Both the position numbers and the translations under genes were made by a program. The notes beneath the pieces were generated by a model. That model saw only the letters and a program-made list of their open reading frames with translations, made no database searches and was not told where the DNA came from. A stretch of DNA of 64,000 bases from assembly GCF_031127815.1 (NCBI RefSeq), contig NZ_JARXHY010000002.1:434001-498000 (forward strand). The letters run 5' to 3'. Source of the stretch: Pelagicoccus sp. SDUM812003 (GTDB taxonomy: Bacteria > Verrucomicrobiota > Verrucomicrobiia > Opitutales > Opitutaceae). This document shows positions 2,316-45,663 of the stretch, in pieces. Positions within the stretch are counted from its first letter, which is position 1, and the number at the start of each line of letters is the position of its first letter.

Positions 2316-3639
2316 AACCAGTTCCGAGGAGCTTGCTTGTTTTGAATGCGAAACAGGGCGGCTCCGCACAGTTTATGAAGATTACCAAACATCTCTGCCC
2401 TCAGGTGCCGAGGTGACGGTGCCCAACGTTCCTATGCTCCGTTGCAATTGCTGCGGAGACACCGTGATCGACGATGACGGCAACCAAAAGATCGACGCTT
2501 GGCTCAACAAGGTAACGAATGCGATCACGCCCAATGAAGTAAAAACCTTTCTCACCAAGTACGGCCTGACACAACGCGAAGCCTCAAGTATCACGGGCCT
2601 CGGAGAGAAGAACATTTCCCGCTGGCTATCGGGGCACTCTCGCCCATCCGATTCGGTGAGCAATTTTCTGAGACTCTTGATTGCGGACGAACCTGCCTTC
2701 GAGCGACTGAGGCAGAAGCGCTTTGACGATGGCGAACCGGCAACGCCCTATCCCACGATTGAGAGACAGCCAAACGCCGAGGAGAAAAAGGTGCTGCAGC
2801 AGGTCGACTTCCCAAAGCTCGCTGAACTCGGCGTCGTGAATCCGACTAGAAGCCCTCAAGAGCGCCGGACCGAAGTTTGCCGCTGGGCAAAGTGTGGAGA
2901 CCTGCTTGAATTTGGCCAACGAATGGCCGAGCGAATGGAGCCGATGGCCGCCTTTAAGGACACGAAGCAGAAGGCCAATCCGATCAGCGGCGGACTGTGG
3001 GCTTGGCTAGGCGAATTGGCTGCTGATCGGGTGGAAACGGGAAACTATGATCGCGAGAAGCTTAGCGAAACGATAAAGCGACTACGCAATCTGACGACAC
3101 AACCGCTGCCAACGGCCGTTCGGAACGTTCAGTCCGAACTGGCGAAAGCAGGTGTAGCGCTCGTTTTCATTCCCATCATGAAGGAGTCGGCATTCCGCGG
3201 CTGCACTCGCTTGGTAACCCGTGACAAGGCGGTGATCATCCATGGATTGAAATACCGAACCCTATCTCAGTTCTGGATCATCCTCTTTCATGAGATTGCC
3301 CATCTGATGATGCATATTGACGAGCCTGGACAAGTTTTCCCCGACTACGACGAGCCTTCATCCGACCCCAAGGAAATGCAGGCGGACGAATGGGCATTCG
3401 AAAAACTCGCACCGCGAGTCAAGGAGTTGGAGTGGATCGCGAAAAGGCCGAGCCCGACCGTATGGGACCTTAAGGAATACGCCGATAGGCTTTCTGTACA
3501 CCCAGCAATTGCCGCGGAAATCTTGAATCGTAGAGCGAACAAAGAAATTCTCCCCTTCGCCTATCTAAGGAAGGAGAAGCTTTTCCCGCATTTGTCGAAT
3601 GATGAAGCAAAAGCCTTGATGGGGACTTCGCAATTTTAG
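2293..3639 (+). CDS. MqsA-like antitoxin fused to ImmA/IrrE-type metallopeptidase
   Basis: A 448-residue cytosolic protein made of two known modules. Residues about 15-130 look like MqsA: a CFEC...CNCC zinc-finger pair, then a HTH with 'GLTQREASSITG' and 'ISRWLSGHSRP', matching the DNA-binding part of MqsA/HigA antitoxins. Residues about 270-400 carry the zincin motif HEIAH (H333, E334, H337) in a hydrophobic context ('ILFHEIAHLMMH') with a downstream acidic 'ADEWAFEKLAP', as in ImmA/IrrE (COG2856) peptidases that cleave repressors. Known parts: zinc-finger HTH for operator binding; ImmA-type peptidase for regulated proteolysis. Inference: a TA antitoxin that represses its own operon through the palindromes at 1833-1885 and may be cleaved, or cleave, in response to a signal. 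Overlaps the preceding gene by 23 bp. Confidence 0.8.
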   Translation: MKTEKKNETSSEELACFECETGRLRTVYEDYQTSLPSGAEVTVPNVPMLRCNCCGDTVIDDDGNQKIDAWLNKVTNAITPNEVKTFLTKYGLTQREASSITGLGEKNISRWLSGHSRPSDSVSNFLRLLIADEPAFERLRQKRFDDGEPATPYPTIERQPNAEEKKVLQQVDFPKLAELGVVNPTRSPQERRTEVCRWAKCGDLLEFGQRMAERMEPMAAFKDTKQKANPISGGLWAWLGELAADRVETGNYDREKLSETIKRLRNLTTQPLPTAVRNVQSELAKAGVALVFIPIMKESAFRGCTRLVTRDKAVIIHGLKYRTLSQFWIILFHEIAHLMMHIDEPGQVFPDYDEPSSDPKEMQADEWAFEKLAPRVKELEWIAKRPSPTVWDLKEYADRLSVHPAIAAEILNRRANKEILPFAYLRKEKLFPHLSNDEAKALMGTSQF

Positions 3640-3642
3640 CTT

Positions 3643-3660
3643 GGCCCTCGATCGAGGGCC
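3643..3660. terminator. Palindromic hairpin after the TA-like operon
   Basis: A perfect 18-bp palindrome, GGCCCTCGATCGAGGGCC, begins four bases after the stop codon at 3639. It lies between this operon and the convergent HigB relic, so it may terminate from both sides. There is no strong T-tract. Confidence 0.5.
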
Positions 3661-3706
3661 TTAAGAGTGGGGTCAAACGTCGGAAGTAAAATTCGCTCGA
3701 CGTCGT

Positions 3707-3952
3707 TTAGGGGTAGTCGACGACTTCGACGTTAGCTGGACCTTCTTTTGTCCAAGAAAAGCAAATACAGTATTGTCGGCTGACGCGTATCGAATGCTGT
3801 CCTCCGCGGTCTCCGCTGAGACCTTCGAGGTGGTTGGCCGGAGGCACGGGAGTAGAATATATATCCTGTCCCTTTACAATTTCCCAGTAGGCCAAACTCG
3901 TCATAAACCGATTCCGAGCAAAGCGACGTGAGGAACGGGAGTGACCAAACAA
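3707..3952 (-). pseudogene. HigB/RelE-type toxin relic
   Basis: The reading frame ends in a stretch typical of HigB-type mRNA-interferase toxins: 'PPANHLEGLSGDRGGQ', then 'SIRVSRQYCICFSW' and 'VEVVDYP'. Only a TTG start is available at 3952, and the region before 'YWEIVKGQ' does not resemble the normal HigB N-terminus. No higA antitoxin follows in the expected place, because the next sequence on this strand is the convergent end of the MqsA-ImmA gene. A REP-like half element lies just upstream (around 4000). I therefore call it a degraded toxin without antitoxin. It could instead be an intact but shortened member. Confidence 0.5.
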
Positions 3953-4238
3953 GTACGCAAAGTCAGGAAAGTTCGCTCAACCTTGATCCCGGCGTCTTCG
4001 GCGTCCTTAGCGGTTAAGAAAAAGCCGGCATTTTCAAGACTCCCGAAGATATCAAACGCGCGAACAGCAGGCGAAAGAAAGGGGTCGGACTGTGCTTATT
4101 GACCTAGGTGTTTCATTGAAGGTGGGATAAGACCCATTCAAAAAACCACCGAAACCGCTGACGATCTCCGCGAACGCAGCACAAAGTCGTCGTCCAATAC
4201 GGGAGGACGCTCTCCGAATTATGCCAGCGAGGCCGACC
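3953..4238. other. Gene-free stretch with REP-like half element
   Basis: No credible gene. The stretch holds a GC-rich half element resembling the 1592-1664 repeat and short minus-strand frames without codon signal or homology that I recognise. It ends at the shared operator upstream of the beta-galactosidase. Confidence 0.5.
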
Positions 4239-4254
4239 TCGCGAGTTTTCGGGA
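4239..4254 (+). promoter_or_regulatory. Shared 16-bp operator, upstream of GH2 at 4414
   Basis: TCGCGAGTTTTCGGGA, 16/16 to the window consensus T[AC][CG]C[GT]AGTT[CT]T[AC]G[CG]GA and identical to the copy upstream of the GH5-CBM13 gene. It ends 159 bp before the beta-galactosidase start. Confidence 0.7.
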
Positions 4255-4329
4255 CAAGCAATACCCTTCACCTGTTTCCAAGCCTCAGCCAAGCTTAACA
4301 CAACCCATGTTATTCCCCCCTCTCCTTAA

Positions 4330-8615
<4,286 letters not shown>

Positions 8616-20777: not shown

Positions 20778-20793
20778 TCCCTAGTTTTAGCGA
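20778..20793 (+). promoter_or_regulatory. Shared 16-bp operator, upstream of GH27
   Basis: TCCCTAGTTTTAGCGA, 16/16 to consensus, extended on both sides to CTATC...GATAG. It ends 258 bp before the GH27 start. The rest of the 309-bp gap (20743-21051) holds no gene; GGATACAGGA at 20890-20899 resembles GGATACGGGA upstream of GH97. Confidence 0.7.
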
Positions 20794-21051
20794 TAGACAG
20801 GCAGCGAGTAAACTTTTATTCTATTGTTCACACCCCAGCGCTGCTCGTTCACTTTAGATTGCTCGCATCCTACCTGTTTCCAATTTTCGGATACAGGAAT
20901 AACCGAGCGCGGCGTTCCGCCTGGCGGCTAATCAAATCCTATTCTTCAAGGTCCTCCCGCCATTTAGCGAACGAGGCGAATTCAGATCCTCGCCAAGAGA
21001 GCTCCAATCGCCTCGAGCAAGGGCTGGCCTATCGACGCCCCTCCTACTCAA

Positions 21052-22310: not shown

Positions 22311-22496
22311 TTCATTTCGGAAGGTCCAACCTAAAATCCTACCCTACAAACAAGACGCCAACGGCGCCAAACGAGCAACGGGGCCGATTTGACATTCCTT
22401 CATTACCAACGATTGTTTCAATGGCTCCGTTGGTTAATTTTCATCGGACACTTTCGCTGGATTCGTTTCTTCCGCCTCCCCCATTTGCACTGCCCC

Positions 22497-25400
22497 ATGA
22501 GCTTTCCGCGTGTAGAAAAAATCTGTCCTGTACGTCAAAGCCTATTGGCAATCGGATCGGCCCTGGCCTGCCTCCTCTTCTCTCAAACGGCATGGGCTAT
22601 CGATCCGGCAAGGGAAATCCACCAGTACAATTGCCAGACCTGGACTCGCCAAAATGGCTTGCCCGCCAACGGCATCAACGCCGTCACCCAGACCATCGAC
22701 GGCTATCTGTGGCTCGGCACCCAAAGCGGACTGGTACGATTCGACGGGGTACGATTCGCGTCGATCGACCTGCCCGACGAGGCCCGGTTTCCGAGCCGAC
22801 TCGTTTCCAGCCTAGACAGCTCTCGGACCGGTGGCCTCTGGTTTGGACTTACCGATGGAGGGTTCGGCTATCGCGACGCGAAAGGCGAGTTTTTCAGGCC
22901 GGACAGTTCCATCTGGCCTAATCCGCACCTCGATGTAGCCTCAATATGTGAATTGAACGACGGATCACTCTGGGTGGGCACGTCTTATGGCCTTATCAAA
23001 CATGCTAGAGAGAATCCCGGCGCCGATATTTTCGACAATCAATTGCACAATGTACGATGGGTTCGCGAAGATGCCCAGAAACGCATCTGGCTAATGACGG
23101 TCAACGAGGGGCTGCACTACTGGCAGGACGGCGAGTTGAACCCATTTCCAGACACTTGGCTAACTGAGCACCTGCATAGTGCGGCTGTAGTGGATCATCA
23201 AGGACGGGTTTGGGTCGGTGGCACACAAGGGCTACGTTGCTACGATGCCGGTTTTCAACGACTGGAAATTCCCCCGTTCACGCACGATCTGCGATTCCTA
23301 TTCGTGGATCGAAACGGTGTGCTTTGGATCGGCACCACGACCCAGGGCTTGGCATGCTACAAGAATGGCGTATTCAGTTTTCTCAGACAGGACGACGGGC
23401 TAGCGAACAATTTCGTCACCAGCATCTTCGAGGATCGCGAAGGCAGCCTTTGGGTCGGCACCCGCGAAGGCCTGAACCAACTCTCCGATGTCAAATTCCC
23501 TATCTACTCCGAGGCCCAAGGGGTGCTCGGCGGATTGTGCCACGGCGTCAGCGCCGCAGCAAACGGAGGGCTTTGGATCAGCACCAGTCGTGGGCTCACC
23601 CATTTTGATGGTCGCAATGCTACGAACTACACCGAAGCGGATGGGCTGTTCAACAACTACACAAAACGAACTTTCGAGGCTAGAAACGGCGATGTGTACT
23701 TGATCAACGGCAGGCAAGGCATCGACATCCTATCGGAAGGCGTGGTAGTCGCGAATCTTCAAAGCGACAGCTGGCCGACAGCCTTTGCGGAGGACAGTCA
23801 GGGCGTAATCGTGTCAGTGGCTGGCACATTGAGAAGGGTCAGCCGCGAGGGGTTCGCTCCCTACGAAATCGACGGCCAAGCTCCCCTGCAAATTCCGTGG
23901 ATACGCGATCTGCTGACCAGCCGAGACGGCGCCCTCTGGGTCGCGTCCGTCGATGGAATCCTACGCATCAAAGACGGAACCGTAAGGAAATGGACCACTG
24001 AAGACGGCTTGGTAAACCACGATGCGTATTCACTATGTGAGGACAACCAGGGTATTATTTGGGCGGGGCTCAGGACTGGCATCGGGCGCATCAAGGACGA
24101 CCGAATAAAAATCATAAGCCGAAGCGACGGTTTGCTCGATGATACCGTCTATGCCATTGTGCCGGACGATCTTGGCAGTCTCTGGTTCAACTCCAGCCAG
24201 GGAATCTTTCGGGTCAGCCTGAAGCAGTTGAATGATTTCGCCGACGGAAAACGCGGGCAGGTGACGTCGGAGGCCTTCAATGCGCAGAACATGATCAAGA
24301 CCATCGACACGGCTGAAGTGGAGTTCATGGGCTGCAAGACCGCCGATGGCAGGATCTGGTTTCCTACCCCGCTAGGCGCCGTGGCCATCGACCCAGCGAA
24401 CATTCCAGTCAACCAAGTCGCGCCGCCGGTTCATATCGAACGCGTTCGAGCCAACTCACGGGAGCTCGCGGTCCGCGAAGCTCAAAAGGTGCCGCCGGGC
24501 CCGGGCGAGTTAGAGTTCCATTTCACCGCCCCCAGTTTCGTCGCACCGGAAAAAACACGCTTCCGTTACCAGCTGGAGGGTTACGACCCGGACTGGGTGG
24601 AAACCGAAAATCGGCGCCAAGCGTTCTATACCAACCTCAAGCCAGGTCGCTATAACTTTCGCGTCACCGCCGCGAACGCTGACGGCGTCTGGAACTCCCA
24701 GGCCACGGTTCTTGGAGTCGTATTGCAACCACACTTCTATCAAGCCACTTGGTTCTTTATTCTGAGCAGTTGTGTAGGGCTGGGCGGACTCGTAGGGGCC
24801 TATCGTTGGCGGGTTAGCGTACTGCATCGCCGGGAGCAGGAACTGCAAGAGAACAGGATATTGCTTGAAAACGAAGTCCGGCATCGAACGGCCGAGCTCG
24901 AAAGCGCCAACCGCGAACTGGAAGCCTTCAGTTATTCCGTCTCACACGACCTTAGGGCTCCATTGCGACATGTCGATGGCTATGTCGACCTTTTGGTTTC
25001 TCGATGCCGCGATGGACTGAGCGAGAAGTGTCAACACTATTTGGATACAATAGCCAGCTCCGTAAACAGGATGGGTATCCTGATCGACGATCTGCTTCAT
25101 TTCTCCCGCACTGGGCGCATCGAAATAAAGCTAAGAAACCTTGATATGAACAAGGCTCTGCAGCTCGCGCTCGACGAGCTCGCAGAGAGCTGCGAGGGCC
25201 GCTCCATCAAATGGGTCATAGGAACGCTCCCTCCCGTCGAAGGAGATCTTTCTTTGATCCGTCAGGTCTGGGTGAATCTTTTGGGCAACGCCATAAAGTA
25301 CACTAGAAATAAACAGAATGCCCGGATAGAAGTGAGTTCCAGAATGGAGGATGGCAAAATCGTATTCACAGTTTCTGACAATGGAGCGGGCTTCGACATG

Positions 25401-25583
25401 CGCTACGCGGATCGACTATTCGGAGTGTTTCAGCGCATGCACTCCGAGGACGAGTTCGAAGGAACCGGCATCGGGTTGGCATTGGTTCACCGCATCGTCA
25501 CCCGCCACGGCGGCCGGGTCTGGGCGGAATCGGAAGTAGGCAAAGGCGCGACTTTCCATTTCACGCTACCTCGAGCCCGATAA
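22497..25583 (+). CDS. Reg_prop/Y_Y_Y sensor histidine kinase with phytochrome-type kinase core
   Basis: 1028 residues from ATG 22497, chosen because it directly precedes a signal peptide ('LLAIGSALACLLFSQTAWA'). A large periplasmic two-component-regulator propeller follows with repeats such as 'GYLWLGTQSGLVRFDG', 'GSLWVGTREGLNQL' and 'GIIWAGLRTGIGRI'. Next come a Y_Y_Y domain ('FRYQLEGYDPDWVE...YTNLKPGRYNFRV', about 690-750), a transmembrane segment near residue 770, a short coiled coil, HisKA with phospho-acceptor H817 in 'SVSHDLRAPLRH', and a HATPase with 'NAIKYTRN', 'DNGAGFDM' and 'GTGIGLALV'. This architecture senses glycan fragments in Bacteroidetes. There is no receiver domain, so a separate regulator is needed; the Rcp1-like protein at 26706 fits this kinase type. 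Confidence 0.9.
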   Translation: MSFPRVEKICPVRQSLLAIGSALACLLFSQTAWAIDPAREIHQYNCQTWTRQNGLPANGINAVTQTIDGYLWLGTQSGLVRFDGVRFASIDLPDEARFPSRLVSSLDSSRTGGLWFGLTDGGFGYRDAKGEFFRPDSSIWPNPHLDVASICELNDGSLWVGTSYGLIKHARENPGADIFDNQLHNVRWVREDAQKRIWLMTVNEGLHYWQDGELNPFPDTWLTEHLHSAAVVDHQGRVWVGGTQGLRCYDAGFQRLEIPPFTHDLRFLFVDRNGVLWIGTTTQGLACYKNGVFSFLRQDDGLANNFVTSIFEDREGSLWVGTREGLNQLSDVKFPIYSEAQGVLGGLCHGVSAAANGGLWISTSRGLTHFDGRNATNYTEADGLFNNYTKRTFEARNGDVYLINGRQGIDILSEGVVVANLQSDSWPTAFAEDSQGVIVSVAGTLRRVSREGFAPYEIDGQAPLQIPWIRDLLTSRDGALWVASVDGILRIKDGTVRKWTTEDGLVNHDAYSLCEDNQGIIWAGLRTGIGRIKDDRIKIISRSDGLLDDTVYAIVPDDLGSLWFNSSQGIFRVSLKQLNDFADGKRGQVTSEAFNAQNMIKTIDTAEVEFMGCKTADGRIWFPTPLGAVAIDPANIPVNQVAPPVHIERVRANSRELAVREAQKVPPGPGELEFHFTAPSFVAPEKTRFRYQLEGYDPDWVETENRRQAFYTNLKPGRYNFRVTAANADGVWNSQATVLGVVLQPHFYQATWFFILSSCVGLGGLVGAYRWRVSVLHRREQELQENRILLENEVRHRTAELESANRELEAFSYSVSHDLRAPLRHVDGYVDLLVSRCRDGLSEKCQHYLDTIASSVNRMGILIDDLLHFSRTGRIEIKLRNLDMNKALQLALDELAESCEGRSIKWVIGTLPPVEGDLSLIRQVWVNLLGNAIKYTRNKQNARIEVSSRMEDGKIVFTVSDNGAGFDMRYADRLFGVFQRMHSEDEFEGTGIGLALVHRIVTRHGGRVWAESEVGKGATFHFTLPRAR

Positions 25584-29238: not shown

Positions 29239-29478
29239 GCCGGTTCCGCTTGAAGTAAACGCCTCCATTCCCTCTGTCTCCCACGGAAGCGGTGAGGTTC
29301 TCGCCCCTGCCACTCGCCGGGGAACCCAGCGCCCCAAACGCATCGTTTGCGTTCATCGAGTCGCGAAACCGGGCCACTCGCGACCTGACAGGGCGGACCT
29401 GCATCGCAGATCGGGCAGCCGAACTGCCCCAACCCCCATGGCAGATCGACCTCAGAGCGATGATCGTCAGGCGGTTTG
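29239..29478. other. Gene-free, GC-rich stretch
   Basis: No gene seen. It contains a possible hairpin, GTCGCG (29360-29365) with CGCGAC (29379-29384), that may end the hybrid kinase transcript, and then the promoter region of the carbonic anhydrase-chemoreceptor gene. Confidence 0.4.
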
Positions 29479-29494
29479 TCGCGAGAATTCGGTA
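29479..29494 (-). promoter_or_regulatory. Shared 16-bp operator, upstream of CA-MCP
   Basis: Minus strand TACCGAATTCTCGCGA, 15/16 to consensus. It ends 65 bp before ATG 29560. The orientation is opposite to most copies, but the site is palindromic. Confidence 0.45.
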
Positions 29495-29559
29495 ATTGTC
29501 ACCCATTTATTCATCACTCGACGAGAATCGACGTTCCTAGCTCACCACCCCACAAAGCT

Positions 29560-31941
29560 ATGAATAAAATCTCGATTCTAAAACTTCTCTTCAGCGTATC
29601 GCTCCTGAGCTGTGCGCTTTCCCAGCAAAACCTCTTCTCGGCTGACTCACCCGACTCCACTGAAGCGAAACGCTCATTGCTGCTGGGCAACGAACGCTTT
29701 GTTTCCGAAGAGTCTATTCATCCCAATTTGCAAATGGATCACCGAGCGAGCCTCGCAGCCGGACAGACTCCATTTGCCACTGTCATCGCTTGTTCGGACT
29801 CGCGCGTTTCCCCGGAACTGATTTTCGACCAAGGGCTTGGCGACCTCTTTGTCATTCGCGTCGCAGGAAACGTGGCAGACGTAGATGAAGTAGGATCGAT
29901 TGAATACGGTATTGGCCATCTGAATACTCCCCTGCTCGTCGTCCTTGGTCACACTCACTGCGGCGCAGTGACAGCCGTCGCCCAGTCGCATGAGGTCCAT
30001 GGTTCCATCCCGCAGCTCGTCGACAACATCAGCCCGGCGGTTGCTCGGGCTAGAGCGAAAGCCACCAAAGCATCGCAAGCGGACTTGGTGGCTCATGCTG
30101 TAGTCGAGAATGTATGGGTCTCGATAGAGGACCTGCTGGACCGTAGCGAAGTCGCACGCTCTTTGCTCCAGGCAGGCTCGCTGCGCGTGGTCGGCGCCGT
30201 CTACGATATCGAAACGGGACAGGTCGACTGGCTTGGCGAGCATCCCAAACAATCGGAATTGGTGGCACGAGCGGTCTCCTCAGAACGCCAGGACATCCAC
30301 GAGCAAGAGTACAGCGACCAACACGAAGCCCTGGATCTGGATTTTCTCGAGATGAAGCCGGTAGAAACGAATACGCTGCACTGGGTCCTCGTCGGTCTCG
30401 GTGGACTCCTACTGGGCGGAGCGAGCATATTCTACGCGTGCAAGGCCCTGCTTCCCAAATGGCGAGTCGGACATCGGCTCGGGGCTGGTTTTTCCGGAAT
30501 GGTCGCTCTGGTACTGCTCGCTGGCGGGATCGGTTTCGAGGGAATGCTGACCGCCTACCGAGATTTTGAAGCATACAGATCCGACAGCCGTCGAACCATT
30601 CTCCTTTCCGAAATCGACATCGCGTTTCTTGAAGCCGAAATCGCAGCCAACGACTTCGCTAGCGACGGCTCCAATAGATCCAGAGACATTCTGGCGGAAG
30701 AGCTGCAATCGCTACGCCAGATCTGCGAAAAAATCCCAGTTCACTTTGACGACAAGCAGCATCTAGCGACCCTGAAAGAAGTGACCGATAGCCTGGCCCT
30801 CTACGATAAGCTGTTTTCGGAGATCGGAGACGAGACCGCCAGCGCGAAAAGAAAGACCGTGCTGGCAAACATGGACGCCTTGGCGGGTCAAGTTGAGGGC
30901 TCTCTCATTGAGCTCACCAACAAAATCGTAAAACGCCAGACGGATGCCGAACCCGTAATTCTGTCCGACCTGCTCGACTCCAAAACGCTCGTGGCAATGG
31001 TATCTGTCGTTTCGGTTCTGATCGGCCTATTTCTCTCCGTATCGATTTCCAGATCCATCATAAAACCGCTGGGATCCATTTCCGAGGATCTTCAAAACGG
31101 GGCCCACCAAACCTCCGTTGTCGCTTCGCAGGTTTCGAGCACCAGCCAAGACTTAGCCCAAGGATCAGCGGAACAGGCCGCTTCGGTCGAAGAGGCTTCG
31201 GCAAGCCTCGAAGAGATCGACAGTATCGTCTCGTCGATCTCCGAAAGCCTTCAACAGACCGACGAACTCATGGGAGACGTTCGGCAAGCCGTTGGCGAAG
31301 GCGTGAAGCGCATGTCCGACATGTCGCAAGCGATGGACGACATTCAGCACGCGAGCAATGCGGTCGGAAACATCGTGAAGACGATCGACGAAATCGCCTT
31401 CCAGACAAACATCCTCGCTCTCAACGCCTCGGTAGAAGCGGCTCGAGCCGGATCAGCGGGGTCTGGATTCGCAGTGGTCGCAGACGAAGTGAGGAATCTC
31501 GCGAAACGCTGCGCCGACGCGACACGCAACACGGCGAGCCAGATAGAGAGCACCATCGCAACGACCGTCGTCGGAGTCGAAATCACGAGTGAACTGGGCA
31601 AAAGCCTTTCCGAGATCATGGAACGCACCGAAAACATAGCCAAGCGGACCCATGAACAAGCGAGGTCCGTGAGCGAACAACGAAGCGGCGTTCGCCAGCT
31701 AAACCTAGCAATGCGACAAATCGACACCGTCGGACAACAAAACGCCTCGATATCGGAGGAATCCGCCGCTGCCGCTGAAGAGCTTAGCAGCCAGTCGGAA
31801 TTGCTGAACGAGACCGTGATCGAACTGCGAAGATTGGTTTCAGGCGTGAGCTCAAGACCGAAAGCTCAAGTCGGCATCGCGAAGAGAGTCAGGACGAATA
31901 GGAGCAGAATCGACCACTCCCAGCCCTTGTCTTTTAACTGA
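29560..31941 (+). CDS. Periplasmic beta-carbonic anhydrase fused to a methyl-accepting chemotaxis protein
   Basis: 793 residues from ATG 29560 (an earlier in-frame start at 29476 lies in the operator and lacks a signal peptide). Signal peptide 1-28. Residues about 33-228 are a full beta-carbonic anhydrase: zinc ligands C78, H131 and C134, the Asp-Arg pair D80/R82 in 'ACSDSR', 'HTHCG', and the end strand '[11 protein letters not shown]'. A linker leads to a first membrane helix (about 274-297). Then '[16 protein letters not shown]' begins what looks like a normal MCP: second helix (312-331), a four-helix-type periplasmic sensor (about 332-475), third helix (477-496), no clear HAMP, and a signalling coiled coil with the hairpin tip '[20 protein letters not shown]'. 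Carbonic anhydrase interconverts CO2 and bicarbonate; the MCP half signals to CheA/CheW. Joint role in CO2, bicarbonate or pH taxis is inference. Confidence 0.92.
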
Positions 31942-31988: not shown

Positions 31989-32004
31989 TCCCTAGTTTTA
32001 GCGA
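31989..32004 (+). promoter_or_regulatory. Shared 16-bp operator, upstream of GH97
   Basis: TCCCTAGTTTTAGCGA, identical to the GH27 copy. It ends 164 bp before ATG 32169. GGATACGGGA at 32082-32091 is a second element shared with the GH27 upstream region. Confidence 0.7.
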
Positions 32005-32168
32005 TAGGCGACTGATCGGTATTCGCCTACCCTATCCTGCTCAATCACTTGGACGATCCCTCCTAATTGTCCCCATCATTAGGATACGGGATCGATGGAC
32101 CGTTGAGATCAGTCAGCCGACCAATCGAAACCCTTCCCCCAAGATCCGCTCCCTACTCAGAAGAACCA

Positions 32169-34210: not shown

Positions 34211-35758
34211 TTATCGGGCAAGACCGACCTTGAGAATTGTGATGCTGTGGGCGGGCGCGAGATAGCTTGTCGAGCCTTTGGGCAAGGTTCGGACGCTGTA
34301 CTGCACCACTTCCTTATCCTGCTCCTCAAGCGTATTCACATCGTGGATCGATGATGCGTTGAGTTCATGCGCAGTCCACTCTCCGCGGACTTCGGCGCCT
34401 TTCACGCTAAGCTCGATTTCAGCTTGTTCCGTTTCGCTGCGGTTCACGATGGCGATAGAGAGGGTCTCTCCGGCTTCGTCTATCGACGAGGAGACGTCAA
34501 GCATCGGCAGGCCATCCGTATCCGGCAGGCCATGACAATCCACATCCGATTTCACGCTCTGGCTACCGCAGAGTTCCCGATACAGGGCCATAGGATAATA
34601 CACCGTTTGGCAGACCACGTTCGTTTCGTCCGTCATAAGGGGAGCGAGAACGTTGACGGTCTGGGCCCAAGTGGCCATGCCAACCGTGTCGGCGTGCCGC
34701 TGAAATAGGTTTAGAAAACAGGCCGTGCCAAGGGCGTGGTTCCAAGTGTAGGTCTGCTCGAGCCCATACGCCCCCGTACCGTTCGGTTCCCAGAAGCCCC
34801 ATTCATCCAGCGCGATCTTGACCGGACCTTTTCAGCCGGGAAAGCGATACCATTTGCTCAAAGGTTCAGGAGTCGCCGGGGTCAGGGTCTTGATCTGGGC
34901 AGCGGTTGTTTTGACCTTTTCCTCCATGCTCGCGACCGAGGCAAAGAGCGAATAAGGCGAATCCCCCTGAGAGCTAGCGTAGAGATGCAGGGAAAGGTAG
35001 TCGGCGATAGGATCCAAGCCCTCGAGAATCGTTTGATTCCAATGCTCGTCATGGCCGACCATGATAAACTCGATATTCGGATCCTGCAGCTTCATGAGCT
35101 TGGCGTAGTACCACGCTTTTTCCACATAGTCGTTCGGATCTTGCAGCACCCCGGCATCCGGTTCGGCCGCCTCCTCGTTTCCCAAGCCCCAGTACTTCAC
35201 GTTGTAGGGAGCAGCATGCCCATTCGCTCGCCGGAAGTTAGCGTAGTAGCTGTTGCCGTCCGCATTGCAGTATTCGACCCAGTAGGACGCTTCCTCGGCG
35301 GTCCCGGTGGACATGTTCACAGCGAGAAAGGGCTCGGCGCCGATCGAGTCGCTGTAGGCCATGAACTCATCCGTGCCGAAGCGATTGCTGTCCTCCCCAC
35401 CCCAGATCAAGTTGCGCCGAACCGGCCGCTCATCCTTGGGGCCGATGCCATCTTCCCAGTGGTAGATTTTGGTCACGGTACCACCCGGATAACGAAATAG
35501 CGGCGTATTCAGATTTCGGATCTTTTCCAAAACGTCTTTCCGGAAACCATTCCGGTCGCTGAGGGGCGAGTCCTCGTCGTAGATGCCCCCGTAGATAGCC
35601 CGCCCGAGATGCTCGATAAACTGTCCGTAGATCAGCGGCGAGATCTCGGCGGTCGCATCGTCGATAGTTACGGTGATTTGAGCGGGGCTGCTCTCGGTCG
35701 AGCGGCCAAAGTTACTTGCAGCCACGGAAATGGCTAAGGTAGCGAGCGTCTTCTTCAT
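34211..35758 (-). pseudogene. Alpha-L-arabinofuranosidase GH51, interrupted by in-frame TGA
   Basis: From ATG 35758 (signal peptide 'MKKTLATLAISVAASNFGRS') the frame runs 308 codons with strong GH51 marks: 'PLIYGQFIEHLGRAIYGGIYD', 'LRYPGG'-type 'LFRYPGGTVTKIYHWEDGIGP' and the acid/base E195 in 'GLGNEEAAEP'. A TGA at 34834-34832 then stops it. The same frame goes on without any shift for another 206 codons to 34211, beginning 'KGPVKIALDEWGFWEPNG', which holds the nucleophile Glu of 'DEWG' and the C-terminal beta domain. A single base change (for example TGG to TGA) explains it. The truncated product would lack the nucleophile and should be inactive. A sequencing error or read-through is possible. 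The flanking reading frame is otherwise undamaged, so the lesion is recent. Confidence 0.85.
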
Positions 35759-35941
35759 CGTTTGGGGTGCGAGCGGGGTAATGATTACTAGTTTAGCGAA
35801 AATTGACCGCATCTAGCATCTCACTCGAACTATCAAAATCAACTGGTGTTTCGGCACATGCTTGCTCTTAAACGTGGTAAAATTGGAAAGCCGCCTTCGT
35901 GCGTCGCAGTCTTCACCTAGAGTTTTACCAGAGAGTCTTGG

Positions 35942-38801: not shown

Positions 38802-38817
38802 TCACGAGTTCTAGCGA
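38802..38817 (+). promoter_or_regulatory. Shared 16-bp operator, upstream of GH5-CBM46-like
   Basis: TCACGAGTTCTAGCGA, 15/16 to consensus, ending 168 bp before ATG 38986. It is followed by GATAGG, as at the GH97 copy. Confidence 0.6.
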
Positions 38818-38985
38818 TAGGCCGTTTGGCCGTTTTTAGCTATTATTTCACAACCCAGCCCAAATAGGCGACACGACCCTGCCCCAAAAAAACGATCCTG
38901 TCTCGGAATACTTTCACCGATTTGCCGCTAATCGCGGCACCCCTTTTGCCTACGCATGTTGAACCCAAACTATGAATACACGCAC

Positions 38986-42429: not shown

Positions 42430-45400
42430 TCACTTTGTACGAACGAAGAGCACTACCTTCGTTCCCGTTCCGGATTCACCGACGATTTCGCAACTGCCAC
42501 CTATGCGCGACATTCGATCACGCATGTTTATCAATCCATTGCCAAAGCCTGCTCCATCGGAGTCCGCTTCGTCCGGAAGTCCTCGCCCGTTGTCCTTGAG
42601 CTCGATCGTGAACCCCGCCTCACTGACTTCGATATGCACCCAAGCTTCCGTAGCATAAGCGTGCTTCACCAAATTATTCAGAGCCTCCTTGAAAGCCAGG
42701 AAGACATTGTGTCGGACTTCGGCTGACAAGTTCCAGGGCGGAACCTCCACCGGTAGATCGAGACGACAGCGCACGTTCGCAGCAGACAAAAAATCGTGAG
42801 CGAACTTGCCCATGTAGTCGACAAGACTGTCGAGCGTATCGTGTTTCGGGTTCACCGCCCAAACGATCTCGTCGAGGGCGCGGGTCACACTACGAGCGGT
42901 GCCATAGATGTGAGAAAGAACAGCAGTCGCGCCCTTAGTATCCGACAACTGGCTACGCGCTGTCTGGCTGAGGATCGCGATTCTCGACAAGCTCGCCCCT
43001 ACGTCGTCGTGTATATCCTGCGCTATGCGAGAACGCTCCCGCTCCACCGCATGCTGCCGTTCCAAATCCTCCAGTTCGCGCAGCATTCGTCGACGCGTCG
43101 CGTAGCGGACGCCCGAAGCGACCATGCCAGACGCCATCAGCACGCACGCCCCCACGAACCACCACGTCTGCCAAAAGAACGGGGCCACCACAAAGGCCAG
43201 CGACGCCCCCTCGGTATTCCACACCCCATCGTTGTTGCAGGCGATGACCCGAAAACGATAGTCACCGGCAGGCAAGCGACTGTATTGGGCGAATCGCATG
43301 TTGCCCGCATCGCGCCAATCGTTATCGGATCCCTCCAGCTTGTATTTAAACCTCACCTTGTCCGGAGCCACGAAACTCAAAGCGCTGAAAGTGAACTCCA
43401 ACCGCTCGTGATCGGGCGCGAATTCGAACGGGACCACCCCATCTTCTAAGGGCACGGTTTGTCCATCCACTTCGAGCGACTCGATCGCCATGGGCGGAGC
43501 CAAAGGATTTGGCTGAATCGAATCCGGATCCACCGAAATCGGTCCCGCGCTGCTGGCGAACCAGATCCGACCATCCTCCGTACGGCAACCCGCGCCCTGA
43601 CGCCCGCCTTGAAATTCTGATACCGGCAAGCCATCGCTGCGATCATAAGACAGGCTGGTGAATCTCGGGATATCGCCGTCGGCGCAACGATTCAGCTCCA
43701 CTTTGGATACACGCTGGATTCCACGCCGCGTGCTCATCCACAAGTAGCCGCGATCATCCTCGAGCATGTAGCAGATCGTCTTATCCGTCAGACCGTGACT
43801 CGTGCCAAGATTGACGAAACGGCCATCCTTGAATCGCGTCAGGCCGTTGTCCGCGGTCCCTATCCAAAGCGATCCATCTTCATCGTCGGCAAAAAGGCTC
43901 TGCACCGAGTTGCTGCCTACTCCGTCTTCGCGCTGGAAAAACATGATTTGCCCATCGGCCAAACGCGCCAGCCCGCCTTGGGAAAACCCGCACCAGAGAG
44001 CGCCCTCTCGGTCCCATGTCATGGCGCCTACATCGTCCCCGACACCACCAGGAGACTTGATCAGCCAGTTCAGCCCTGCATCCGTAACCTCCGCCACGCC
44101 ATCCCGAGTCCCGACCAAGAGTACGCCTGTTGCAGGATTCGACAGCAACCCGAGAACGGGACTGGTGGTCTCCGGTACGCCTGCTGGCCTTACGAACTTG
44201 TCTCCATCCAGCCGATACGGTCCGCCCCACCAGTAGTTCCCAGCCCAAACCTCGCCAGCTTGCGTCTCCGTCACCGCCGATATGTACGGATTGTCCAAGC
44301 CTTCTTCACCCGCGTAGGTTGCCCACTCCCCTGCGTTATGGTGGTACAATCCAGCCCCATCGGTTCCAATCCAGAGCGAATTTTCGCTTCCCGCGGCGAG
44401 CGTCAGCGTACTGGTGCCGCGCCACTGGTCAGGTGACTTCAGTCTACTCAAGGCGCTTGGATGAATTGACACTAGCCCCGAGCTGCCTGCACCTGCCCAC
44501 AAGGTTCCCTCCCGGTCTTCGTAGAGAAAACGTATCCAATTTTGTGGCAGTCCATTGTCGCGGTTGAATCTCACCGGCTGGCGATCGTCACCAAAAATCA
44601 GATACAACCCAGCGTGAACTGTTCCGACCGCCAGCGTGCCGTCGCTCAGTTCCACGATATCGGAGATGGTTGCTTGCGGCCAAGGAAAGCTCCCTCGGTC
44701 CTCCGTCCAACGATCGCCCTCCGCTTTGCGAATCTTTCGGTCGTGGAGCACCCACGCTCCGCCTCCTGCGGCGGGAATGATGCCTTCGATGTAGTCGTAA
44801 TAGGAAGGCTGCGGCAGCTCGATCGGCACGAGTTCGCCATCCACCAAACGCGCTCCGTAGTTGTTTTCCATGACAAAGATTCGACCATCCTCAGCCCGGC
44901 TCCAGGACAAAAGCCCCGGGTGCTCGTCGCCGATCATGGAGGGGATGACAGCATCACCTCCCACGCGGCTCACCGAACCGTTTTCGTGCATCGCCCAAAG
45001 CCGCCCCTCAGCATCGCTGCCAAGCCCTATGATCTTTTCCCCAATATCGCCCGACGGAGTAGCGACAGCGAAAAACTGGCCATCTCGCAGGCACGCGATC
45101 CCACCCGACTCCTGGCCAATCCACAGCGTTCCTTGCGCATCTTCATAAAGCCGAGTGATGCGGCGATCCTGTATCTGCGGGGTGTTGGCAGAGTCGAAGA
45201 CCCGAAAGCTATCCCCATTGAAACGGGCCAAGCCGCTGTTGGTTCCAAACCAAAGGTATCCGTCGCTGGTTTGCACCGCGGAAGTCACCATGTTCTGCGG
45301 CAGCCCGTCTTCCGTCCGCCATATCCGTAGCGTATAGCCATCGGCCAACAGGGTCGCTGCGCTTCCGTCAACCGCCGCAATCGCGCAGACGACCCAAAAG

Positions 45401-45468
45401 ACGACTGTGAACAGGAGAAAACGCAGGTTCAAAATGGAGCGCTGGAGTAAAAAACCGACGGACAACAT
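42430..45468 (-). CDS. Reg_prop/Y_Y_Y sensor kinase, NarX (HisKA_3) type
   Basis: 1012 residues from ATG 45468, which precedes a signal-anchor ('LRFLLFTVVFWVVCAIAA'); the longer frame to 45609 has no features. A periplasmic propeller with many Reg_prop repeats follows ('GYLWFGTNSGLARFNG', 'GTLWIGQESGG', 'GSLWIGTADNGLTRFKDG', 'GYLWMSTRRGIQRV'). Then Y_Y_Y ('VRFKYKLEGSDNDWRD', 'YSRLPAGDYRFRV'), a membrane helix ('WWFVGACVLMASGMVASG'), HisKA_3 with phospho-acceptor His in 'RIAQDIHDDVGASLSRIA', and a HATPase ending 'GFGNGLINMRDRMSRIGG'. Such kinases signal to NarL/LuxR regulators; the one at 25666 is the only candidate here. It lies downstream of the TonB receptor on the same strand, consistent with sensing the imported glycan. 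Confidence 0.92.
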   Translation of the reverse strand: MLSVGFLLQRSILNLRFLLFTVVFWVVCAIAAVDGSAATLLADGYTLRIWRTEDGLPQNMVTSAVQTSDGYLWFGTNSGLARFNGDSFRVFDSANTPQIQDRRITRLYEDAQGTLWIGQESGGIACLRDGQFFAVATPSGDIGEKIIGLGSDAEGRLWAMHENGSVSRVGGDAVIPSMIGDEHPGLLSWSRAEDGRIFVMENNYGARLVDGELVPIELPQPSYYDYIEGIIPAAGGGAWVLHDRKIRKAEGDRWTEDRGSFPWPQATISDIVELSDGTLAVGTVHAGLYLIFGDDRQPVRFNRDNGLPQNWIRFLYEDREGTLWAGAGSSGLVSIHPSALSRLKSPDQWRGTSTLTLAAGSENSLWIGTDGAGLYHHNAGEWATYAGEEGLDNPYISAVTETQAGEVWAGNYWWGGPYRLDGDKFVRPAGVPETTSPVLGLLSNPATGVLLVGTRDGVAEVTDAGLNWLIKSPGGVGDDVGAMTWDREGALWCGFSQGGLARLADGQIMFFQREDGVGSNSVQSLFADDEDGSLWIGTADNGLTRFKDGRFVNLGTSHGLTDKTICYMLEDDRGYLWMSTRRGIQRVSKVELNRCADGDIPRFTSLSYDRSDGLPVSEFQGGRQGAGCRTEDGRIWFASSAGPISVDPDSIQPNPLAPPMAIESLEVDGQTVPLEDGVVPFEFAPDHERLEFTFSALSFVAPDKVRFKYKLEGSDNDWRDAGNMRFAQYSRLPAGDYRFRVIACNNDGVWNTEGASLAFVVAPFFWQTWWFVGACVLMASGMVASGVRYATRRRMLRELEDLERQHAVERERSRIAQDIHDDVGASLSRIAILSQTARSQLSDTKGATAVLSHIYGTARSVTRALDEIVWAVNPKHDTLDSLVDYMGKFAHDFLSAANVRCRLDLPVEVPPWNLSAEVRHNVFLAFKEALNNLVKHAYATEAWVHIEVSEAGFTIELKDNGRGLPDEADSDGAGFGNGLINMRDRMSRIGGSCEIVGESGTGTKVVLFVRTK

Positions 45469-45491
45469 CGAAAGATAAAGGGTTACTAAAC

Positions 45492-45507
45492 TATCTAAAA
45501 CTCGCAA
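45492..45507 (-). promoter_or_regulatory. Degenerate shared operator before the sensor kinase
   Basis: Minus strand TTGCGAGTTTTAGATA, 13/16 to consensus, 23 bp before ATG 45468. It keeps the core GCGAGTTTTAG and the usual orientation. Confidence 0.35.
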
Positions 45508-45663
45508 GCAGCATAGGAAACGCTCCCGTGGACGCGAAAGAATTTCGCGAGCGAATGAAGCCGAGAGAACGAAAGATATCCGTTGCGTGATCGGTATCTT
45601 TCGGCGCAAAGGCGATCACCTCGCCCAGCAGCTGACGCGAGTCTGCTGACCGGTCCAACAGAA

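Follow-up and report, generated by a model that had tools for sequence, protein, structure and literature searches.

A beta-carbonic anhydrase joined to a complete chemoreceptor in Pelagicoccus: a candidate receptor for CO2, bicarbonate, or acidity found in several bacterial groups

The window analyzed here, a 64,000-nucleotide stretch of a Pelagicoccus sp. SDUM812003 contig (NZ_JARXHY010000002.1, positions 434,001 to 498,000), carries on its forward strand a gene that encodes a beta-carbonic anhydrase (CA) and a chemoreceptor (MCP) in one protein of 793 residues. The reading frame runs uninterrupted from an ATG at 29560 to a stop codon at 31939-31941, including codons 260-300, where an earlier reading of the sequence (the original prediction) had asked whether a frameshift or a boundary between separate genes might lie; an in-frame TTG at 29476, upstream of the ATG, is a possible alternative start. 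Pfam placed Pro_CA (PF00484) at residues 73-222 (E 8e-41, profile positions 1-156 in full) and MCPsignal (PF00015) at residues 578-724 (E 2e-37), and thus both the coordinates and the joining of the two domains had been predicted correctly. The features of the gene are given below, with the evidence for each.

29560..31941, + strand: CA-MCP fusion gene, 793 aa; a single ORF, stop included, with Pro_CA and MCPsignal in one protein
29560..29643, + strand: signal peptide, approximately residues 1-28; hydrophobic segment 4-22, found also ahead of the CA in four same-family fusions
29656..30291, + strand: beta-carbonic anhydrase, residues 33-244, predicted periplasmic; PF00484, active-site residues invariant in five fusions, Foldseek 2a5v_D
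30292..30366, + strand: flexible linker, residues 245-269; pLDDT < 50 at 244-270
30376..30432, + strand: TM1, residues 273-291, which anchors the CA; hydropathy, model helix 270-300
30433..30477, + strand: short positive loop, 15 residues, presumably cytoplasmic; hydropathy scan, side from the positive-inside rule
30478..30534, + strand: TM2, residues 307-325, where the MCP proper begins; hydropathy
30541..30990, + strand: four-helix sensor, residues 328-477, predicted periplasmic; model helices 303-369, 372-395, 399-424, and 428 onward
30991..31047, + strand: TM3, residues 478-496; hydropathy
31087..31842, + strand: cytoplasmic MCP signalling hairpin, residues 510-761; MCPsignal 578-724, Foldseek 8c5v chain I and 3zx6

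Genes for a receiver-domain protein and a hybrid histidine kinase lie upstream of the CA-MCP gene, and a GH97 glycosidase gene lies downstream. The genome yielded two beta-CA matches, the fused one and another at C7 without an evident signal peptide (judged by eye), together with 6 flagellin-domain matches, 19 CheW-domain matches, and many MCP matches. The original prediction had also grouped the gene with polysaccharide genes, on the strength of an operator said to be shared and to lie upstream, and our guess is that the motif meant was TTTTAGCGATAGGC. This motif sits at 31996-32009, 54 bp past the CA-MCP stop and ahead of the GH97 gene; its copies with at most one mismatch (20785-20798, 31996-32009, and 38809-38822, all +) precede Melibiase, GH97, and GH5/CBM ORFs, respectively. 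The best match within 29239-29559, upstream of the CA-MCP gene, had mismatches at 5 of 14 positions, and among 200 random pieces of equal length 103 gave the same best match and 44 a better one; a shared operator upstream of the fusion was therefore ruled out. The motif is itself a candidate operator of a hemicellulose regulon. Elsewhere in the window, an alpha-L-arabinofuranosidase at 34211-35812 (-) is divided between two ORFs (ASD1_dom at 34832-35812, the C-terminal domain at 34211-34678) in what looks like a broken frame, and Reg_prop/Y_Y_Y histidine kinases, which often accompany polysaccharide genes, are encoded at 22389-25583 (+) and 42430-45609 (-).

Hydropathy analysis of the window protein called segments at residues 4-22 (signal-peptide-like), 273-291, 307-325, and 478-496, with a second call at 315-333 that overlaps 307-325. 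The first two are the predicted counterparts of the signal peptide and membrane helix described originally, and hydropathy and AlphaFold2 likewise bear out the description of an MCP complete from its own N-terminus, with TM2, a four-helix sensor, TM3, and the MCP hairpin in succession. The positive-inside rule puts the loop between TM1 and TM2 in the cytoplasm, which predicts a periplasmic location for the CA as well as for the helical sensor and makes the receptor behind the CA complete from its own first TM; export is presumed, and the topology is a prediction.

The AlphaFold2 model, built from a 22-row alignment across which the residues of the MCP tip were invariant, had a mean pLDDT of 75.5 and a pTM of 0.37, so the relative placement of its domains is unreliable. 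Within it, a confident CA (~33-244) was followed by a disordered stretch (244-270) and by helices at 270-300, 303-369, 372-395, 399-424, and 428-761, which agree with hydropathy in putting a predicted periplasmic sensor between two TMs. The CA part of the model matched Rv3588c in Foldseek (2a5v_D; 40% identity, TMt 0.82, E 4e-13), and a beta-CA fold is accordingly predicted; the remainder matched the chemoreceptor structures 8c5v (chain I) and 3zx6. On the sensor, TarH (4HB_MCP) scored 14.3 bits (E 0.038), below its Pfam cut-off of 25.2, and the Pfam scan of the window protein returned no HAMP domain. HAMP domains are common in MCPs and are not universal among them.

End-to-end fusions were found in at least four of the 119 other genomes of the family (G074, G116, G040, and G041), where at most eight candidates were scored per genome in nearly all 119, so that further cases may have been missed. 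Their proteins are 40-41% identical to the window protein over the full length. The genus has one carrier among its eight genomes, the other seven having yielded no fusion. Since the fusion occurs end to end in four other family genomes, it is not a sequencing frameshift, and the unbroken frame together with these full-length relatives rules out both a frameshift and separate genes.

More widely, the best 80 of 573 relatives were used from a CA-alignment scan of named genomes. Fourteen of them had the CA in one frame with MCP motifs and 66 did not, the latter including L082, which ends at a contig end, and L058 and L093, which resemble broken fusions; L060 and L010 are one contig. Carriers of CA-MCP proteins are recorded as Zixibacteria, Opitutia, Phycisphaerae/Phycisphaerales, Desulfobacterales/Desulfobulbaceae, and Sumerlaeota (five phylum-level groups). 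In the class of G133 (241 genomes), five CA ORFs of at least 700 aa came from four genomes and all were CA-MCP, as were the five high-scoring ones of that size in the class of G131 (248 genomes) (in G131, G124, G619, G582, and G427), where four low-scoring CA ORFs of at least 700 aa were left outside the count. Among the matches listed for the 387 genomes of the window's phylum, CA-MCP proteins were present in G000, G041, G074, and G040. The homologous fusions that the original prediction had proposed to look for therefore recur, with 25 distinct one-frame CA and MCP proteins in total (27 CA domains), three of which (L073, L077, and L218) stop at contig ends. Also outside the count are large CA ORFs in G537, G526, G837, G895, G846, G792, G804, G673, and G915; L224 (G795), which is a SulP-CA fusion; and L222 (G473) and L223 (G601), whose ORFs of at least 300 aa contained no SDSR, CADSR, or MCP motif.

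The succession of signal peptide, TM1, TM2, and TM3 was recovered in 20 of the 25 fused proteins by a hydropathy threshold, with overlapping calls merged by eye. The exceptions were L061 and L077, without a called signal peptide, L218, without a separate TM2, L221, with two segments, and L081, with two TMs. L221 (576-3035), whose CA is without its first part and in which just two hydrophobic segments were called, looks damaged, as if stretches were missing. HAMP was present in 5 of the 12 fused relatives scanned by Pfam (L059, L065, L078, L088, and L214), and HBM matches, weak and below the cut-off, were obtained in L078, L081, and L216. The fused CAs are carried on differing sensors, the window model showing four helices and these three proteins a weak HBM match.

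The zinc ligands C78, D80, H131, and C134 and the dyad partner R82 are present as had been claimed, and all are invariant in the five same-family fusions. Across the 25 fused proteins, the Cys, Asp, Arg, His, and Cys residues are intact in 26 of 27 CA domains; the exception, L061 (3914-6892), has Ser for the first Cys and Asn for the His ligand and has thus lost two zinc ligands. With its C to S and H to N changes in a fused CA, L061 may be regarded as a natural pseudo-enzyme receptor. The position that we take to be Trp39 of the allosteric site of HICA is V, I, or A in 27/27 fused domains, and at the four positions changed in the HICA variant W39V/G41A/P48S/A49P the active-site motif of the window CA has, by the same presumed numbering, the residues of that variant. 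On these grounds the window CA is probably non-allosteric and not of the bicarbonate-switched type II; it is probably a zinc-binding, type-I-like, active enzyme. Several CA domains, fused or unfused (L070, L063, L071, and others), are followed by His-rich or Lys/Pro-rich stretches with a possible role in metal or proton handling.

Quick trees were built for the CA domains; 17 of the 94 gathered proteins (L058, L093, and 15 unfused) gave no CA domain by the motif cut and are also outside the zinc-ligand table. A single origin of all fusions was rejected (p 0.001 with the 27 fused CA rows constrained to a single clade), and therefore the fusion has, on these trees, been repeatedly gained and/or lost; the fused label takes 11 changes, two of which are forced by strongly supported branches. 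The quick CA tree alone did not place the window CA among the same-family fusions, and the grouping of these five as one clade was not rejected (p 0.82), being a better tree that the free search had missed. When the sensor stretch 328-490 was compared with the 25 fused proteins and the MCP ORFs from L002-L037, four same-family fused proteins were among the five best matches, as was the unfused L014; for the MCP stretch 510-765, unfused MCPs scored equal or higher, and the fused relatives were not singled out. The CA had a dN/dS of ~0.09-0.16 in the 8 of 9 fused pairs with finite dS, many of the dS values being near saturation, and these ratios indicate purifying selection on the CA domains. 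In 9/9 pairs its pN was below that of the linker plus sensor, so the helical part diverges faster than the CA, which may be ordinary for MCP sensors, fused pairs alone having been compared.

Three arrangements of the CA were found with one MCP family, to which L216, L081, and G378 belong (L216 and G378 are 46 and 50% identical to L081, respectively). In L216 the CA is N-terminal with its own TM. In L081 a full-length CA (250-399, profile 1-156) splits the helical sensor in two, helices being predicted at 7-74, 77-103, and 108-170 before the CA and at 430-467, 471-493, and 497-595 after it. The inserted CA was unfolded in the model of L081 (pLDDT < 50 at 176-428), probably for want of CA rows aligned over that stretch, and all 15 Foldseek matches at an E of 0.001 or less were to chemoreceptors, none to a carbonic anhydrase. 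A search of 150 genomes, with at most five candidates scored per genome, gave a full-length match to L081 in its own genome only, and the inserted arrangement is therefore known from a single 5034-base contig. In G378 (L257, strand -) the MCP gene (3050-5152) is followed 70 bp behind, on the same strand, by a gene (1069-2979) for a protein with two CA domains, a signal-peptide-like segment, and three further hydrophobic segments, and ~700 bp upstream of the MCP lies the end of a CheA-like ORF that has HATPase and CheW domains; by gene order and domain content this is a split form of the fusion and the sole clear split pair. Tandem CAs within fused proteins occur in L059 and L088. An MCP-like ORF was found in the flanks of only L058 and L093 among the 66 loci without a one-frame fusion, and gene neighbourhood thus lends weak support to the CA-MCP pairing. 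L058 itself looks like a broken fusion, with a CA ORF at 3923-4618, an MCP ORF at 5225-6460, and a broken frame between them; its CA, which is outside the 27-domain count, has His for the Arg and Trp for one zinc Cys, and the recorded name of its source, Akkermansia muciniphila, may be a misnomer.

Since the pairing turns up repeatedly, in several bacterial groups that are far apart, it probably is a genuine means by which swimming cells detect CO2, bicarbonate, or acidity. We give roughly even chances to a specific form of this, in which the window protein is a CO2, bicarbonate, or pH chemoreceptor whose tethered, type-I-like CA speeds the exchange between CO2 and HCO3-/H+ beside the sensor. 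Export would put the CA in the periplasm, held by a flexible linker to a membrane anchor of its own and next to the helical sensor of the same chain, where catalysis would let periplasmic HCO3- and H+ track CO2 as quickly as a swimming cell makes its decisions. This product, as bicarbonate or protonation, would be read by the helical sensor or by the membrane segments, and the state of the sensor would be passed to CheA activity through the ordinary MCP hairpin, in a presumed direction of response. Without an enzyme, CO2 at near-neutral pH needs tens of seconds to become hydrated, which is slower than the seconds-long memory of chemotaxis, so an enzyme at the receptor would allow bicarbonate or protons to report CO2 in time. 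By hand arithmetic with an assumed turnover of 1e5 per s and D of 1e-9 m2/s, the extra product would amount to ~3 micromolar at 5 nm from one enzyme and, with the same constants, to ~0.1 mM where 1000 enzymes share a patch of 100 nm; a bicarbonate signal would therefore need arrays and protons could matter sooner, which suggests that a strictly local-ligand model is better suited to protons or arrays than to bicarbonate.

An enzyme that conditions its surroundings is favoured over one that supplies a mechanical input because the disordered linker and separate TM lie outside the line of TM2, sensor, and TM3, and conditioning of the sensor's space is favoured by the tether and anchor, by active sites that remain intact, by the range of sensors, and by the G378 pair. 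The low dN/dS of the CA, its pN below that of linker plus sensor, the missing Trp39 equivalent, and the flagellin, CheW, and MCP matches of the genome, which point to CheA/CheW partners, also speak for the combination of enzyme and sensor. A fast-evolving sensor would nonetheless be odd for one fixed product, although such change may be ordinary, and L061 without two zinc ligands, L058 without one ligand and the Arg, and the single carrier among eight genus genomes also weigh against the combination of enzyme and sensor. Its main rival is that the CA fold is itself the sensor: CO2, bicarbonate, or pH would alter the active site or the oligomeric state, and the change would reach the MCP via TM1 and the cytoplasmic loop or directly through the sensor helices, with catalysis incidental. 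Both mechanisms, an enzyme that makes the ligand and an enzyme fold that senses, had been put forward in the original prediction, and both are compatible with the present results. Such a role would fit the retention of a fused CA in L061 despite the C to S and H to N changes, the slow evolution of the CA beside a fast helical part, and the tandem CAs; the insertion of the CA between the sensor halves of L081 would also fit, but that arrangement is known from one genome only. The retained zinc ligands of 26/27 domains, the disordered linker of the window model, the loss in 27/27 domains of the Trp39 of bicarbonate-switched enzymes, and the separate CA protein of G378 all count against sensing by the fold, which we consider rather unlikely.

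The MCP might instead be a mere anchor or address that keeps the CA at the receptor array for metabolism (CO2 recapture or pH buffering), the CA giving no sensory input. That most close CA relatives (66 of 80, these being the best of 573) lack a one-frame fusion and that CAs also occur joined to different membrane proteins, among them the SulP of L224, could be so explained, but repeated gain or loss with complete MCPs (clade test p 0.001) and three arrangements with one MCP family suggest that receptor function matters, and we judge the anchor explanation improbable. A non-functional or unexpressed accident in the window genome would agree with the one carrier in eight genus genomes, yet it is at odds with the full-length relatives in at least four of 119 other family genomes, the purifying selection on the CA domains of fused pairs, and the key residues, all intact, and we hold it to be very improbable indeed. 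More broadly, the CA receptors may be a separate and repeatedly evolved class of CO2/bicarbonate chemoreceptors, spread over several phyla and with a live enzyme as input, in which at least one line, that of L061, would be a zinc-less, purely binding form; we advance this broader proposal tentatively, at somewhat less than even chances.

Chemoreceptor inputs are usually seen as ligand-binding domains, and here a CO2-hydration enzyme is built in, in several lineages and arrangements. If the interpretation is true, the protein would be a direct bacterial receptor for taxis to CO2 or inorganic carbon, accessible to zinc-ligand mutants and known CA inhibitors, and carbon chemistry would be joined to navigation in such groups as Desulfobacterales, Phycisphaerae, and Opitutia. 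The natural set of live, zinc-less, tandem, inserted, and split CAs allows catalysis to be separated from binding.

MCPs and beta-CAs are known separately, and what appears from the domain content to be new here is an MCP with an enzyme as its periplasmic input. The original prediction knew of no described receptor with such a domain, and we likewise found none in the open-access literature, including the excerpts of PMC7691447, PMC3543383, and PMC8406319 consulted for a CA-MCP receptor. Helicobacter pylori TlpA, described in PMC8406319 as a chemoreceptor with arginine, bicarbonate, and acid as signals and a dCache sensor, resembles the proposed receptor in that bicarbonate and acid are among its signals; it differs in its dCache sensor, and carbonic anhydrase goes unmentioned in the main text of that paper. 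The nearest solved CA, the beta-carbonic anhydrase Rv3588c (2a5v, 1ym3), shares with the window CA its fold, zinc ligands, and Asp-Arg dyad, whereas the window CA is predicted to be exported and TM-tethered to a chemoreceptor. With Tar/Tsr-like 4HB and HBM MCPs the window protein has in common the order of TM, helical periplasmic sensor, TM, and MCP hairpin; it differs from them in the extra enzyme domain and extra TM ahead of the ordinary N-terminus, and HAMP was not found in it. In SulP-carbonic anhydrase fusions, of which L224 is an example, Pro_CA is borne on an integral membrane protein as it is here, but the partner there is a transporter and in the window protein it is a receptor.
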